A stretch of DNA of 64,000 nt from a virus. Below, in pieces: positions 6,320-13,064 of this stretch; the stretch's first letter is position 1; each line of letters opens with the position of its first letter. Made by a program: the position numbers and the translations under genes. The DNA lies in the IMG/VR virus record IMGVR_UViG_3300020474_000001, positions 124,001-188,000 of that record; one strand, 5' to 3'. The notes below the pieces were generated by a model. That model saw nothing but the letters and a program-made list of their open reading frames with translations. It did not search any database and was not told where the DNA came from.

Positions 6320-6525
6320 AGTTTAGATACTCCGATTACAATAAGAAAACTGAGCATAATCACCATATCCCATATTTTAAATTTTACAAAGTATGGGATA
6401 CAAATGAGGTCAGCAATCAAGTGAATAATTGTTCCTGACATTACACTCACGTATACCATGGCGAAATGTGCAGAGACAATGAGGGAGCACCCAAGCACCC
6501 TCATGTATGTTAAGACTTTGTTCAT
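6289..6525 (-). CDS. small membrane protein
   Basis: 78 mostly hydrophobic residues, probably with two or three membrane spans (VLGCSLIVSAHFAMVYVSV, then TIIHLIADLICIPYF, then WDMVIMLSFLIVIGV). The ATG overlaps the gp45 stop (ATGA), so its expression follows the clamp gene. The function is unknown. Confidence 0.65.
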   Translation of the reverse strand: MNKVLTYMRVLGCSLIVSAHFAMVYVSVMSGTIIHLIADLICIPYFVKFKIWDMVIMLSFLIVIGVSKLWNPILTSSF

Positions 6526-7205
6526 CCAAAAGTAGAATCAGGTTCCATAGCAATATAATATGTCAGATCACTATTCTTTGCTGTGAATCTAGAGAGAAGT
6601 TTTTGTGAAACAACCACTTCATAAGTTCCAGGAAGAATCTTGATATTTTCAACTTTAAAGTTGAAACAAAATACCGAATCAGTTTCACCAACAACTACTG
6701 AATAATCGTTTGAGGTATCATTCTTCTTGTCACGAACAACAAGTTTAATAACTCCATTATCACCAATAGCAGATAAATCTGGAGTCTGATATACAGCTGA
6801 TGCTTTTAGCAACTTATCCAGTTGCTCGGTGCTTACCTCAAAACAGACATCTTCTGTAGGAAGAGAAATCTCTTTATCTGGAGGAGAGACAATCACATTT
6901 GGATCTGCAAAGAAATACTTTGAACGAGACTTCCCCTCTTTAATGACAACATAACTGTCATCTTCAAAGTTAAGTTCTGGATTTTGATACAAACTCAATC
7001 CATTCAAGAATTGATTCAAATCATAGACACCAAAGTCTTTTGGGAAATCTTCTCGAACAGTAACCTCAGCAAGAATATTCTTCATAATGCTGATTGTACG
7101 CAACTTGCTTCCTTCTTTAATCAAGATAGATTGATTAATAGAAGAAAAGTTCTTCAAAAGAGAGATTGTTTTTTCAGAGAGTTTCATGCGATCTAAAGTT
7201 TTCAT
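6522..7205 (-). CDS. gp45: DNA polymerase sliding clamp gp45
   Basis: A ring-forming processivity factor for gp43 polymerase that also acts as a coactivator of late transcription with gp55. The 227-residue product (T4: 228) starts MKTLDRMKLSEKTI and has the alternating strand pattern of the clamp fold, ending in YYIAMEPD-x-TFG. The ATG at 7205 is three bases past the upstream stop. A TTG two codons earlier is not needed. It heads the replisome operon that continues to gp44, gp62 and regA. Confidence 0.93.
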   Translation of the reverse strand: MKTLDRMKLSEKTISLLKNFSSINQSILIKEGSKLRTISIMKNILAEVTVREDFPKDFGVYDLNQFLNGLSLYQNPELNFEDDSYVVIKEGKSRSKYFFADPNVIVSPPDKEISLPTEDVCFEVSTEQLDKLLKASAVYQTPDLSAIGDNGVIKLVVRDKKNDTSNDYSVVVGETDSVFCFNFKVENIKILPGTYEVVVSQKLLSRFTAKNSDLTYYIAMEPDSTFG

Positions 7206-7207
7206 TA

Positions 7208-7831
7208 TCAATAGGGGAAATCGGATTTGGTTACTTTGTAGTGGTTATCAAAATGCAATAGCAGCATAGCATAATGAATGACTTTCAACAAGTCTTTCTT
7301 ATTTTGACCATCTTTATCACCATATCGTGTCCCATACTTTATGATATTTGATTGGCAGAATGCAGATGCAAGTCCTTTAGCTGCCATCAAATCAATAGTT
7401 TGAATATCTTTAAATCCACTATTCTTTCCAGTGTAGTGACTACGATAGGTGCCACTAACATACTCATGAATGTCCTTTAGGATAACATCCTCATCATACT
7501 TCCAACGTCCATTATTGTTATCTGGAGATCGTGGAAGATCTGGGACATCGATCTGTAGATCATAACCTTCAAGTTTTGTGTAGTCCATATCTCCTGTTGA
7601 GGTGTAACCTTGCCAAAAATCACCATAATCTTTCTGAGTTGCTTCACTGATGTTAAAAGAAACAGAATCAGTTCCTTCAGCACCAATGATTCCATCAGCA
7701 GTCTTTTCATAAAGACGATTTAGGCGATCTGGATCATTACGATTGTAATCGTAATAATACGTAGAATGTTCAGTCATTTTGTTGTTTGAATAAAGTTCAT
7801 CATACAGGAAACTCCAGGAGTTTGTCATCAT
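7208..7831 (-). CDS. DUF3310-like protein
   Basis: About 207 residues from the ATG at 7831 (or the adjacent ATG at 7828). An earlier TTG at 7858 overlaps the ATPase gene. The C-terminal 65 residues contain the DUF3310 pattern: TIDLMAAKGLASAFCQSNIIKY, a charged loop, then DLLKVIHYAMLLL. DUF3310 proteins are common in phages and have no settled function. The first 130 residues are polar, Asp- and Tyr-rich, and unlike the family. It sits directly before gp45. Confidence 0.65.
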   Translation of the reverse strand: MMTNSWSFLYDELYSNNKMTEHSTYYYDYNRNDPDRLNRLYEKTADGIIGAEGTDSVSFNISEATQKDYGDFWQGYTSTGDMDYTKLEGYDLQIDVPDLPRSPDNNNGRWKYDEDVILKDIHEYVSGTYRSHYTGKNSGFKDIQTIDLMAAKGLASAFCQSNIIKYGTRYGDKDGQNKKDLLKVIHYAMLLLHFDNHYKVTKSDFPY

Positions 7832-7838
7832 TCTACCA

Positions 7839-8930
7839 TTAGAAGTTGTGCTCGTCAAGACACTGCTCTTGATGATCCTCTTCAGTAGGCATCACAAAGT
7901 CAGCATCAACTTTGTCATAAAGTTCCATAAAAGCTTGCTTAGTATCATCATCAAAACGATTTACACAAACTTCAATTGCTTTTGCCTTATCACCGAAGAT
8001 ATTATATGCCTGAACGATATGAACCAGACGACGGGTGCTAATGATCTCCTCAATACCACCATCGTAGAAAGTCTTGCGGATGATATCTGCCCAGTCAGCT
8101 AGACGCTTACAGAAGTTCGTATCGCCACACAATTTATTGAGGATCTTGGTTTCAATTGCAGCACTTGGATACTCCTGCTCAAAGGTAACAGGAAACCTCT
8201 CCAGGAACGCTTCGTTGAGCACGTTAGTTCCAATAAACCGACCATCATCAGATCCCTTACCCTTTGTATTGGCAGTGGCAAATACATTAAACCCTTTTGA
8301 CGGATTAATGTACTGACCTACCTTCTTCAGGAAGACACCTTTCCCTTCGAGGATTGATTGAAGGCAAAGAATCTTGTTGGAAGCCAGGTCAATCTCGTCA
8401 AGCAGTAGAATCGCACCGCGTTGCAACGCTTCGATGACCGGACCATTGTGCCAAACGGTTTCGCCATTGACAAGGCGGAATCCACCAATGAGATCATCTT
8501 CATCAGTTTCAATAGTAATGTTTACTCGAATCAATTCACGACCCAGTTGAGCACACGCTTGCTCAACCGAGAACGTCTTGCCATTACCAGATAGACCCGT
8601 AATGAACGTTGGATAGAATAGACCGGAAGAAATAATTTTCTTAACATCATTGAAATTGCCAAACTTGATGAAGGAATCATTTTTATTAGGAATCAGGGTT
8701 TGCTTTTCGACTGAAGGAACATTATAACTCTCTTCGAGATCCTGAATTGTCTCAGAAGTTACTTCAAGATTCCACTTACCGCGACCGACCTTATACTCTT
8801 CAAGTTTCTTGGTCACAGTAGCGTAAGTGGTTCCGTTCATGGCACACCATGCGCGGAGATCTCCAGCAGTCACAGACTCACCATAAAGACTTTGAAGTGA
8901 AGTGCGAATGTAATCGGCAGAAAGTGCCAT
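7839..8930 (-). CDS. cobS: MoxR/CobS-type AAA+ ATPase
   Basis: A 363-residue protein annotated in many T4-like cyanophages as the cobaltochelatase subunit CobS. Walker A GLSGNGKT lies near residue 112, Walker B LLLDEID near 177, and sensor-like ATANTKGKG near 217. It is preceded by a small N-terminal region (LRAWCAMNG-x-TYATV). Only one gene away upstream is a VWA protein, which fits the known pairing of MoxR-type ATPases with VWA partners. The ATPase call is firm. A role in cobalamin synthesis is traditional and not shown by the sequence. Confidence 0.88.
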   Translation of the reverse strand: MALSADYIRTSLQSLYGESVTAGDLRAWCAMNGTTYATVTKKLEEYKVGRGKWNLEVTSETIQDLEESYNVPSVEKQTLIPNKNDSFIKFGNFNDVKKIISSGLFYPTFITGLSGNGKTFSVEQACAQLGRELIRVNITIETDEDDLIGGFRLVNGETVWHNGPVIEALQRGAILLLDEIDLASNKILCLQSILEGKGVFLKKVGQYINPSKGFNVFATANTKGKGSDDGRFIGTNVLNEAFLERFPVTFEQEYPSAAIETKILNKLCGDTNFCKRLADWADIIRKTFYDGGIEEIISTRRLVHIVQAYNIFGDKAKAIEVCVNRFDDDTKQAFMELYDKVDADFVMPTEEDHQEQCLDEHNF

Positions 8931-8952
8931 TGCCTTTGTTTGAACTACAACT

Positions 8953-8958
8953 AGTATA
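8953..8958 (-). promoter_or_regulatory. possible -10 element for the CobS-like gene
   Basis: TATACT on the minus strand lies 23 bases before the ATG at 8930 and directly after a terminator T-tract. No good -35 is visible at 16-18 bases, so this would be a -10-only or activator-dependent promoter. Confidence 0.35.
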
Positions 8959-8962
8959 CATG

Positions 8963-8986
8963 AAAAAAGGGGACCGTGTGGTCCCC
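8963..8986 (-). terminator. Rho-independent terminator
   Basis: Minus-strand stem GGGGACC / GGTCCCC with a four-base loop, then six T. It lies 10 bases past the stop of the 52-residue gene and separates the VWA operon from the ATPase operon. Confidence 0.88.
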
Positions 8987-8996
8987 CAGTGGACAG

Positions 8997-9155
8997 TTAT
9001 TCAAGTGTCCTCTGTTCGTAGTAATTCTCAGATATTATTTTGGCAGTGTATCCAGGATAATACCTTTGAACCCATGCGTTGATCCCCATAGCAGTAATTG
9101 CACTACTACAAACAACTAAAACTTCTTTAGTATCTTCCAATACAATGTGCTTCAT
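8997..9155 (-). CDS. 52-residue protein coupled to the VWA gene
   Basis: The ATG at 9155-9153 overlaps the stop of the VWA gene in ATGA, and the reading frame runs 53 codons to a TAA just before a terminator. The product has a polar start (MKHIVLEDTKE), a short hydrophobic middle (VLVVCSSAITAMGINAWV) and a tyrosine-rich end. I do not recognise it. Its placement suggests it works with, or is dosed to, the VWA protein. Confidence 0.55.
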   Translation of the reverse strand: MKHIVLEDTKEVLVVCSSAITAMGINAWVQRYYPGYTAKIISENYYEQRTLE

Positions 9156-11281
9156 ACTACTAAAGAAATAAACTCTCCTAGAACTTTTTTATTTAGTTTC
9201 TTTGTTTTAAGAGACTTAATGAAAGCGGATTTAATCTGACCCTTTGTTGCACCATCATTAATGTCAAAATCAGAGTTCTGAGAAAGTGTGGTTGATGACA
9301 TTCCAAAGTAAGCATGATAACCGGACCTAGTGATGCAGAAGCTTCTATTCTTTTTCCAGTCAGAAAAGATCTTATCATAAGAATCGCTACCATAACTATG
9401 GTATTGCCTGATAAAACCATTTGCTTCGCGAGGTGGCAATACTCGGATACCAATAAAGTTTACGTTTGGAAAACTTCCTTTAAGATCCTTCAATAAGGTA
9501 TCTGTAAATTCGTGGAAATATACACCAAAATTCAAAGTAGTTCCGGTCTTCCTATTACGAAGATACCCACGATCACTAGGAATTTTACGTTGACCCAGGT
9601 AAGGTTCATCTTCCCAAGGACGATCTACTAGTACGTGTCTCGCAAGTGGTCCAGCCTCACCGTCTGTAAGAACTATACACTGAACTTTTTGAACACCGGT
9701 TTCTTTACTAAATTTTGGAAGTATATTATGTAGAGTAATCAGAGCCTCATTCAAAGGAGTCCCAGATAAAGAAAGTTTGTCAGGAATACTGTAATTAGAT
9801 TGCCTTAAAGTAAAGTAAGAAGCAATCCTCCAAATGTTAATCATCTGAGTTTGTAAATCCTTACCACTCACTTTACTGGTTAATAAATTCAACATACTAA
9901 AGCAATCATCTACACAGATTAACCCATTTTCTCTTTCATAGTGTGGAGACATATCAACTGCAACATAACGTCCATATTCAGAAGAATATTCCATCTTGTT
10001 CCACTCATTTGTAAAAGCATAAACCTCAAAGGGAATTGATACTTTCTTACAGAACCAAATCAAATTATATAATTGCTTGATCGTATCCAAGAGAACATTA
10101 GACATTGAACCCGACCAATCGAGAACAAACACCAGTCCATGATTCTTTCCATCAGAAAGAGTGGTTACTTTCTTAAAAAGATCTTCACTATACTTATACG
10201 TATGAAGTTTAGAGCAGTCCAAAACACCAGTTCTAGAAGTACTAGCACGGGCATAGGAGTCTGCAGCTTTCTTGCACTCAAACTCCTTTACTAGATAATT
10301 GACTTCTTTTTGTGCTGATTTTTTGAAAGACATGAATTCTGAATCAACAGATTCATAAATGTTCCATGGGGAGACATCATATTCTTTACAATGATCAATC
10401 ATTCTCTGTTTCGATGCATTCTCATATCGGAGACACTCTTTATGAATATCAGAATTGGAAACAATAACTGTATCTAGATTAACATCAGGTATTTCCACAT
10501 ACACATTATCTGAAGAATTATCTCTATTAAGATCTTTAAGTTTTTCCTCAAGACTGTCTACAGTATGTGTGGATGTCTCACTAAATCCACCACCTTTCTT
10601 AGGAGCATCATTCGAATTATTACCATCAGCATCTTCAGATGCCGGATTAATTCCATTTTCTTTTGTTTTTGTACTATCAGATTCTTCTGAAGATTCGGAT
10701 GATTTATTGTGAGAGGCAGGAACAGAAGATTTTTCTTGATCCTTAGATTCACAAAACTCATACAGTTTTCTTGTAGCAGCAATAGCATCTTCAAAGGTTT
10801 CACACTCTGCAATCATTTGAACAATAGGTTTTTCACTATTCTCAAAGGATATATCACCATGACTACCAATCTTAAAATAAAGATTGACTCGATCAGGTAA
10901 GCTCATTTTAGAAATATCTTCTCCAGAAATGCAAAAGAAATCTCTATCAGATAGCTCTTTGTATCCCTTAAAGAAACTTTTTGAAAGACCAGGATACCTA
11001 CGCTTCATCAACTTTTCAATACGAGCATCCTCTACAATATTGAACACAGAGTGAGGAACTTCTTTTGGTGGATCCACATTTGGAGTGAACAGAGCATGTC
11101 CAACTTCATGACCAACCAACAAATCATAAACAGAATTGCTGGCACGATCCCAGAGAGGAAGGGTCAAAACTCTGGTTTCTACATTGAACTGTGCTGTCTC
11201 AACACTTCGGTTCTCTACAATGATATCTTCCGTAGCGAGCAACTTTGCCAGTTGAGACTTGATTTCGTGTGAAATGGGCAT
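9152..11281 (-). CDS. VWA-domain protein with N-terminal HExxH metallopeptidase motif (CobT-like)
   Basis: 709 residues in three parts. Residues 1-130 carry HEVGH (58-62) and a following NIVEDARIE, which together resemble a zinc-metallopeptidase H-E-x-x-H...E site. Residues about 180-260 are a Ser/Glu/Asp/Lys-rich linker. From about 375 a VWA domain has the metal-site motif DWSGS (near 385) and later T-D-G-E. Cyanophage annotations call it CobT or a peptidase. It pairs with the AAA+ ATPase downstream, as in MoxR-VWA chaperone systems. An adapter or protease that remodels a target is as plausible as cobalt chelation. Confidence 0.82.
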   Translation of the reverse strand: MPISHEIKSQLAKLLATEDIIVENRSVETAQFNVETRVLTLPLWDRASNSVYDLLVGHEVGHALFTPNVDPPKEVPHSVFNIVEDARIEKLMKRRYPGLSKSFFKGYKELSDRDFFCISGEDISKMSLPDRVNLYFKIGSHGDISFENSEKPIVQMIAECETFEDAIAATRKLYEFCESKDQEKSSVPASHNKSSESSEESDSTKTKENGINPASEDADGNNSNDAPKKGGGFSETSTHTVDSLEEKLKDLNRDNSSDNVYVEIPDVNLDTVIVSNSDIHKECLRYENASKQRMIDHCKEYDVSPWNIYESVDSEFMSFKKSAQKEVNYLVKEFECKKAADSYARASTSRTGVLDCSKLHTYKYSEDLFKKVTTLSDGKNHGLVFVLDWSGSMSNVLLDTIKQLYNLIWFCKKVSIPFEVYAFTNEWNKMEYSSEYGRYVAVDMSPHYERENGLICVDDCFSMLNLLTSKVSGKDLQTQMINIWRIASYFTLRQSNYSIPDKLSLSGTPLNEALITLHNILPKFSKETGVQKVQCIVLTDGEAGPLARHVLVDRPWEDEPYLGQRKIPSDRGYLRNRKTGTTLNFGVYFHEFTDTLLKDLKGSFPNVNFIGIRVLPPREANGFIRQYHSYGSDSYDKIFSDWKKNRSFCITRSGYHAYFGMSSTTLSQNSDFDINDGATKGQIKSAFIKSLKTKKLNKKVLGEFISLVV

Positions 11282-11348: not shown

Positions 11349-13064
11349 TCAACTGGTCACCATGCGACTAAATCCCTTAATCTTCTCAAACTTAATGGTA
11401 TCCTGAAACTTATCAAATAAACTTTCTTTGTGTGAGATGACAAAGACATTGGCATCACTCACAACATAATTGATAATTTTTAGAAACTCTTCTGTTCCAA
11501 ATGCATCGAGAGAACTATCAAATACTTCATCCATGATTAGTAGATTAGTATTTACAGAATTTTTCATTCTTGCAACTTCTCTCCAGGTAAACAAAAGAGC
11601 CAAATCTATTCTCATCTTTTCACCTTCACTAAAAGAAGAGTAAGAGAAATTATCATGTATAGCAGATTGTATTGTCTCATTAAACTCACCATCAAGACTA
11701 AAGTTGATGTAGATATCCATCATTTGAAGATATCGATTTACCTGCTGATTGATTAGAGGAAGATACTTACTAACAATCTTAGATTTAACCCCACCATCCT
11801 TTAGTAGCGAGTATGAAAACTCATAGTGACAAACTTTTTCACGTATCTCTGCTATTTGTTCAAGAGATTCTCCCAATCTTTTTTCATACTCTTGCAGTTT
11901 TTCGACTTCAGTATTTTTGTCTGCAATCTGGGAGGTAATTCCTTGAATTTCCGATTCCAAACTCTTGATTTGTTTGCGAATCTCAGAGATCGTAGTATTG
12001 TTTGTAGATATGCCATGCGTTAGAGATGTTATCTCCTTTGTGAGTTTATTGAGTTGATGCTCTCTCTCTTCTTCATTTTTAATTGCCTGTTCAAGTTCTG
12101 TAAACCCGGATTGCAACTCTACTATTTTATTTTGAGCATCGTTAATTTTATTTATTCTGAAGTCTTCGTCAATGGACTGCGTGCATGTCGGGCAAACCGT
12201 ATTGCTAGTAAAAAACTTATGATCTTTAGATACCGACTCGATGCGATGAGATATCTTCCCTCTAAGTTGATTCAACTTTTTTAACTTAGTTTTTCCATCA
12301 GACCAATCATCAAATTCAATCTGCTTCTCAACAATACTATCTTCATACTTCTCATTCTTCTTCATATGATCCAACATCTCATCTTCCAGTTTATCAATTC
12401 GATTGTGCTTTGATTCAATCATGAACTCAGCATCACGCTCAACCTTTTCGATAAACTCCTTTTGCATATTATACTTATCTGTAAGGGAAGTTTTTTTAAG
12501 ATCAGATATCTTAAGATTTTCTTTTAACTCTCTTATCCTTTCCTTAATCAACAAATTCATATTAGAAAATACTCTAATGTCCAACAAATCTTCAATCACT
12601 TCACGACGATTTGCTGGTGATAATTGCATGAATGGGACAAAACTACTACTTCCCAAAATTACAAGTTGTGTAAATGACTTATAATTCATCTTCAAAACAT
12701 TTTGTTCAAACCACTTCTGCTGATCTACAGCTGAAGCATGTTGATCTAGCAAACTATTATTTCTCCATATTTCAAATACATTCGGTTTTATCCCCCGAAC
12801 AACTTTCCACTTAACAGAAGAGATTTCAAACTCTATCACCACCAAGCAATCCTTTTCATTTACCGAATTTGGAAGCTGTGGTTTATTGATTTTACGAAAA
12901 GGTTTAGCAAACAAAGAAAATGTCAATGCATCCAAAATAGTGCTTTTGCCAGCACCATTTGTGCCAATAATCAACGTAGTTGATTTACCGGTTAAATTCA
13001 CTTCTGTAAATTGGTTGCCAGTAGAAAGAAAATTCTTCCAACTAATCTTCTCAAATAAAATCAT
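11349..13064 (-). CDS. gp46: recombination endonuclease subunit gp46 (Rad50/SbcC-like)
   Basis: The ATPase of the gp46/gp47 complex that resects DNA ends for recombination-dependent replication. The 571 residues (T4: 560) show Walker A GTNGAGKS (34-41), two long coiled-coil arms, a CPTC zinc hook near residue 292, the SFSEGEKMR signature near 480 and Walker B LLIMDE near 516. It overlaps the DUF3110 gene, which lies between it and gp47. Confidence 0.96.
   Translation of the reverse strand: MILFEKISWKNFLSTGNQFTEVNLTGKSTTLIIGTNGAGKSTILDALTFSLFAKPFRKINKPQLPNSVNEKDCLVVIEFEISSVKWKVVRGIKPNVFEIWRNNSLLDQHASAVDQQKWFEQNVLKMNYKSFTQLVILGSSSFVPFMQLSPANRREVIEDLLDIRVFSNMNLLIKERIRELKENLKISDLKKTSLTDKYNMQKEFIEKVERDAEFMIESKHNRIDKLEDEMLDHMKKNEKYEDSIVEKQIEFDDWSDGKTKLKKLNQLRGKISHRIESVSKDHKFFTSNTVCPTCTQSIDEDFRINKINDAQNKIVELQSGFTELEQAIKNEEEREHQLNKLTKEITSLTHGISTNNTTISEIRKQIKSLESEIQGITSQIADKNTEVEKLQEYEKRLGESLEQIAEIREKVCHYEFSYSLLKDGGVKSKIVSKYLPLINQQVNRYLQMMDIYINFSLDGEFNETIQSAIHDNFSYSSFSEGEKMRIDLALLFTWREVARMKNSVNTNLLIMDEVFDSSLDAFGTEEFLKIINYVVSDANVFVISHKESLFDKFQDTIKFEKIKGFSRMVTS

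Follow-up and report, generated by a model that had tools for sequence, protein, structure and literature searches.

The locus and its genes

We analysed a window of 64,000 nucleotides, positions 124,001-188,000 of the 207,655-base virus record IMGVR_UViG_3300020474_000001, whose genome is of the T4-like, cyanophage type. The subject of this work is a pair of large genes in this window, coding for an AAA+ ATPase and a protein with a VWA domain, together with a small gene that lies between them. All features described below are on the minus strand and are given in window coordinates. The VWA protein (709 residues, 9152..11281) is followed by an open reading frame (ORF) for a microprotein of 52 residues (8997..9155) and by the gene of a MoxR-type ATPase of 363 residues (7839..8930), which is named "CobS" in the annotation of its relatives. 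A first-pass annotation, made from the letters alone, had proposed these three ORFs, an HEVGH...NIVEDARIE site in the VWA protein and an ATGA overlap with the microprotein gene, and all of them were found at the proposed positions and on this strand.

On the basis of its match to phrog_459 and of structural models, the VWA protein is composed of a predicted gluzincin domain at the N-terminus (N-domain), a disordered acidic linker and a C-terminal VWA domain. The N-domain, as delimited for an AlphaFold2 model of the domain alone, covers residues 1-186 (10724..11281). It contains HEVGH at residues 58-62 (11096..11110), with H58 and H62 as candidate zinc ligands and E59 as candidate catalytic residue, and NIVEDARIE at residues 81-89 (11015..11041), in which E84 is the candidate third ligand. 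In the VWA domain, the alignment places the metal ion-dependent adhesion site (MIDAS) motif DWSGS at residues 388-392 (10106..10120), and the MIDAS aspartate D540 is encoded at 9662..9664.

Conservation of the putative zinc site

The VWA protein gave a full-length profile match (residues 4-708, E 3.6e-258) to PHROG 459, a family annotated as "peptidase", and tblastn found its relatives in 463 of 50,697 phage records. When 65 relatives with 28-76% identity to the protein of the window were aligned, H58, E59, H62, N81, E84, D85, R87 and E89 were invariant in every row, so that the gluzincin signature, that is HExxH with a downstream glutamate ligand, is present throughout the alignment (H58, E59, H62 and E84). 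For comparison, the composition of the protein would give 0.03 HExxH per 709 residues by chance. Part of this alignment had been gathered with a pattern that contains HE, and for this reason a second count was made on independently fetched loci: the motif was found in 63/63 full-length proteins (48 distinct) that had been fetched with other patterns or with the microprotein. Among the 13 genome loci, one (L183) covers the VWA part only and offers no N-domain for comparison; at another locus (L180) the site reads HEVSH.

The same motif was present in 10 of the 12 named phages whose VWA protein was read, namely S-SM2, SynMITS9220M01, S-PM2, S-SKS1, metaG-MbCM1, the SAR11 phages Mosig and HTVC008M, Rhizobium phage RHph_N2_6, Cobavirinae phage T5S1 and Ochrobactrum phage OC (HESAH). 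It also occurs in two bacterial proteins (L222 and L224). The median ratio of nonsynonymous to synonymous substitution rates (dN/dS) of the VWA protein was 0.12, calculated on pairs that are not independent. Non-conservation of the HExxH residues had been named beforehand as an observation that would refute the first-pass proposal; the test gave the opposite result within the family, and the residues were lost in two distant phages, which are considered below. Our literature search brought up no report of an HExxH site preserved in viral CobT, although a paper outside the searched set may exist.

Predicted structure of the VWA protein

The full-length model of the VWA protein had a mean predicted local distance difference test score (pLDDT) of 79.8, and the AlphaFold2 model of the N-domain alone reached a pLDDT of 93.0 with a predicted template modelling score (pTM) of 0.87. 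The top five Foldseek matches of the N-domain were chains of jannalysin, abylysin and selecase, that is of minigluzincins, and further down were ArdC, M61, IrrE/PprI and thermolysin, among others. VIA-align placed jannalysin (Z 7.3, root-mean-square deviation (rmsd) 2.8, 98 residues) and BepA (Z 7.3) among its matches, and the rows listed were, by their titles, mostly zinc metallopeptidases. Minigluzincins share with the phage domain the predicted fold and an HExxH followed by a helix with a candidate third ligand; they differ in that they are stand-alone proteins of about 100 residues, with no fusion to a VWA domain. The solved CobT structures 9uka_G and 21vu_H were not among the fold matches listed for the N-domain, which is no evidence for a different fold. 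A search of the solved structures with the profile of the whole family gave nothing relevant.

At the other end of the protein, D388, S390, S392, T508 and D540 were invariant in the 65 relatives, leaving the DxSxS-T-D pattern of the MIDAS intact. The best structural match of the VWA domain was the MIDAS domain of midasin (MDN1; Z 16.2, rmsd 3.9, 222 residues), and the comparison with NorD gave Z 14.6 (rmsd 5.1, 244 residues).

The AAA+ partner

The ATPase matched AAA_5 with 66.7 bits (cut-off 22), and a CbbQ/NirQ/NorQ C-terminal domain was detected in it. Among its distinct relatives, the Walker A motif (GLSGNGKT, residues 112-119, 8574..8597) was kept in 59/59, Walker B in 58/59 and the arginine finger in 59/59; conserved motifs are thus intact at all three functional sites of the pair. 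The median dN/dS was 0.14, again on non-independent pairs. Its matches among solved structures were midasin, which was the best by sequence, CobS (71.4 bits), NorQ and CbbQ. With the CobS model TIGR01650 it scored 67.6 bits, far below the curated cut-off of 558.55. Taken together, motifs and models indicate with high confidence that the two large proteins would constitute a MoxR AAA+/VWA machine.

Some observations concern the ATPase genes of other phages. By eye, the CobS-like proteins of RHph_N2_6, ANB28 and ZY21 (L216-L218) show a Cys/His pattern at the N-terminus that resembles a zinc finger and that was not seen in the cyanophage AAA+ protein. The deposited record of S-SKS1 (L232) has no annotation for either gene of the pair.

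Comparison with CobT and NorD

Cobaltochelatase CobS/CobT (TIGR01650, TIGR01651, PF06213, PF11775) resembles the phage pair in the adjacency of the AAA+ and VWA genes. The CobT model PF06213 aligned with the phage VWA protein around NIVEDARIE, although with 17.8 bits against a cut-off of 26.1, and TIGR01651 was not among the models listed for it. PF06213 matched 39 of 150 Pseudomonadota genomes; of these true CobT, 30 loci were examined and the 9 weakest were left out. The MIDAS motif was kept in 30/30 of these proteins, whereas HExxH was present in 0/30, with both histidines gone and the aligned residues reading mostly RGxADSxA. Downstream, the CobT segment EQARVE aligned with the phage EDARIE. 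When the profiles of the phage N-domain and of 16 CobT N-domains were compared directly, the result was not significant (6.6% probability). However, the bacterial HEAAH protein L222 passed the Pfam CobT cut-off over its whole N-domain with 49.3 bits and also matched the phage family around the zinc site. This bridge, together with the aligned EDARIE and EQARVE segments, suggests that the phage and CobT N-domains are related. The two systems differ in the zinc site, which is intact in the phages and lost in all the CobT examined, and in the absence of CobN from the phage.

NorQ/NorD is also similar, being formed by a MoxR AAA+ protein and a VWA partner with a disordered linker, but its gene context is different and its relatives carry another motif. 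In the NorD-like proteins L223 and L226 of Pseudomonadota (about 780 residues), HMVGH...EDxRI stands at the position of the phage HEVGH...EDARI (hhalign 95.4%); possibly, these proteins retain metal ligands but lack the catalytic glutamate. The simplest reading of these alignments is that an ancestral zinc site has been kept in phages and has decayed in CobT and NorD. Midasin (Rea1/MDN1) shares the AAA+ and MIDAS-VWA logic, but it is a single giant polypeptide that works in eukaryotic ribosome assembly. By gene content, the MoxR-vWA conflict systems also come close (PMC7159879), since they combine MoxR and VWA with a linked zincin and a small ORF for a precursor peptide; there, unlike in the phage fusion, the zincin is a separate gene. 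A defence-system reading of the locus was considered, and PADLOC returned zero matches.

Cleavage or remodelling

Several results weigh against a peptidase. Structure prediction of the N-domain, which the first-pass annotation had proposed as a check of zinc-peptidase geometry, placed minigluzincins at the top, but the best Foldseek E was 0.031 and none was below 0.001; the VIA Z of 7.3 is below 8, in a range where a common arrangement may explain the similarity. A zincin fold of the N-domain is therefore likely but not proven. Moreover, one listed entry with an HExxH domain, 8s5f, is described as an oxygenase, so that HExxH does not necessarily denote a peptidase. Finally, in the distant phages ANB28 and ZY21 the site is lost (DREVST and DSEISK, respectively) and the gene pair is kept, and consequently remodelling free of cleavage must be possible in those phages.

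These two phages, by retaining the pair despite the loss of the site, speak for the alternative that the pair is a MoxR/VWA remodeller or a metal-cofactor insertase, whose HExxH domain binds metal or the target and does not cleave. The same holds for the HMVGH...EDxRI of L223 and L226, and for the known MoxR/VWA pairs, which mostly remodel, as described for NorQ/NorD (PMC9976466). On the other hand, E59 is invariant in 65/65 relatives, and metal binding alone would not need this residue. We consider a purely non-cleaving function unlikely, yet an alternative to be taken seriously. Our preference goes to a partner that works as a metallopeptidase in addition, and we hold it, with slight confidence, to be the probable one: a MoxR AAA+/VWA machine that would remodel or cut protein.

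The cobaltochelatase question

A different function has been proposed for viral CobST by Liu et al. (2021; PMC8651126). According to this explanation, the pair would be a CobS/CobT cobaltochelatase that hijacks the CobN of the host, with more cobalamin made during infection. Clokie et al. (2010; PMC2984593) had already remarked that the hosts were not found to have cobS, and that what additional cobalamin would do was unknown.

The scores of the ATPase with the CobS model and with solved CobS, the CobT alignment near NIVEDARIE and the related domain of L222 are in favour of a chelatase. In addition, PF02514, which represents CobN and also covers ChlH, was matched in 59 of 61 sampled genomes of the presumed cyanobacterial host family. 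Only one of the 61 had CobS, and the contig in question also encodes the phage VWA protein.

Nevertheless, the scores with the CobT and CobS models are far under the curated cut-offs, and the zinc site that is invariant in phages is absent from the 30 true CobT. No match to PF02514 was obtained in the 207,655-base phage record, which is possibly incomplete. A T4-like phage contig carrying the pair is present in the Nonlabens xiamenensis assembly, in which no CobN/ChlH match was obtained. The phage carries subunits of a class I ribonucleotide reductase, an enzyme that does not require B12. The pair is also kept in two phages of SAR11 Pelagibacter HTCC1062, a bacterium that is not known to make cobalamin. 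On balance, we regard a chelatase function as rather improbable. Since the VWA partner keeps a zinc-protease site that true CobT has lost, reshaping or cutting of proteins appears more likely than a role in B12 synthesis.

Genomic context

In the window, the pair is flanked upstream by the gene of a gp46-like recombination nuclease subunit (11349..13064) and downstream by that of a gp45-like sliding clamp (6522..7211), both named after the gene order of S-SM2. This linkage is general: of the 55 loci whose flanks are long enough, 54 have a gp46-like relative upstream and on the same strand, and a gp45-like relative lies downstream in 64/67. The annotated order in S-SM2 and S-PM2 is gp47, gp46, VWA protein, AAA+, gp45 and gp44; correspondingly, Ochrobactrum phage OC has two endonuclease subunits, VWA protein, AAA+, clamp and clamp loader. 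A DNA polymerase gene is close to the pair in four phages of different types. This context indicates, without proving it, a role linked to replication, and the gene order points to the phage replication and recombination genes as the setting of the machine, rather than to the host targets that the first-pass annotation had suggested. In both Pelagibacter myophages, a gene for ribosomal protein S21 is found close downstream of AAA+ (L219:7042-7245 and L231:8742-8951).

The microprotein

The first-pass annotation had described the 52-residue gene as coupled to the VWA gene by the ATGA (9152..9155) in which the start of the one overlaps the stop of the other. The microprotein belongs to a genuine family, with the core SAITAMG...YYPGYTAKI and relatives at 73 IMG/VR loci, nearly always between the VWA and AAA+ genes; neither the coupling nor the presence of the gene proved to be constant. 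Most relatives start shortly after the VWA stop, some of them several hundred bases after. In a survey of the slot between the two large genes, based on loci fetched with the VWA family (the best 80 of 597, and so skewed towards relatives of the window), the microprotein was present in 26 of the 66 loci with both slot ends and absent in 40, and can thus be an optional partner at most.

The median dN/dS of the microprotein was 0.35 on non-independent pairs, as compared to 0.12 and 0.14 for the large genes. It had zero matches in Pfam, PHROG and PADLOC, and none over the cut-off in NCBIfam. In phage records there were only three direct matches, and two of them, both in S-IOM18, are distant from the pair; one of these relatives (L002:4001-4144) lies between dehydrogenase and terminase genes. 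The slot of S-SM2 holds an unrelated ORF of 49 residues, and that of S-PM2 has no annotated gene. At another locus, a tandem pair of microprotein-like ORFs occupies the slot (L167:7931-8355).

Its position in nearly all the IMG/VR loci that have it and the moderate purifying selection acting on it would fit an obligate third subunit of the machine. However, the majority of the slots surveyed are without it, the slots of S-SM2 and S-PM2 contain an unrelated ORF or no annotated gene, and S-IOM18 has its copy elsewhere, so that an obligate subunit is highly improbable. Judging from its distribution, the microprotein is apparently an optional accessory. Between its gene and the AAA+ gene, a hairpin followed by a T-run (8968..8987) resembles a terminator, by consensus match only, and suggests a separate control of transcription; a terminator scan of the region found 3 as compared to a mean of 4.2 in shuffled sequences, that is a total not above chance.

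Discussion

The first-pass annotation had put forward a MoxR-type remodelling or proteolytic system as an alternative to cobalt chelation. Conservation, fold and context favour this proposal, and the E of the fold match and the two losses of the site temper it. From the intact motifs, the predicted folds, the linkage of the two genes and their placement among replication genes, we infer that the two proteins form a complex, that the N-domain binds zinc and that it cleaves a target. In such a machine, the AAA+ protein would assemble as a hexameric ring that consumes ATP. The VWA domain would dock on this ring and use the MIDAS metal to hold on to an acidic residue of the target, a step that is modelled on NorQ/NorD and midasin. 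The zinc site of the N-domain, carried by the flexible acidic linker, would then cut the target, or the part of it exposed by the motor. The target would most likely be bound to phage DNA, or be the replisome or a recombination complex. The 52-residue protein, as an optional accessory, may act as an adaptor or an inhibitor.

The question matters because cobS is regarded as one of the core auxiliary metabolic genes in marine T4-like cyanophages and serves as a marker of their communities in the environment (PMC9983427). Should the pair prove to be a protease that remodels proteins, the B12 role ascribed to it in many viromes would be mistaken, and an energy-dependent protease next to the phage replication genes would have gone unrecognised. 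The conserved site also puts in doubt the published re-annotation in which "peptidase" was called a mis-annotation of cobT. Furthermore, the comparison suggests that the N-domain of CobT may be a decayed zincin, which is a testable idea on the origin of class I chelatases.

These elements may be joined in a single reading, which we advance tentatively, as possible rather than probable: cyanophage "cobS" would be the motor of a protease at the replication/recombination complex, CobT and NorD would be decayed descendants, and exchangeable small proteins would occupy the slot that separates the two genes. If this is true, cyanophage cobS is no B12 auxiliary gene and the phage metalloprotease is energy-dependent; the decay of a catalytic site would have turned a proteolytic machine into a metal-insertion machine, and the proteins of the slot would steer or restrain the machine.

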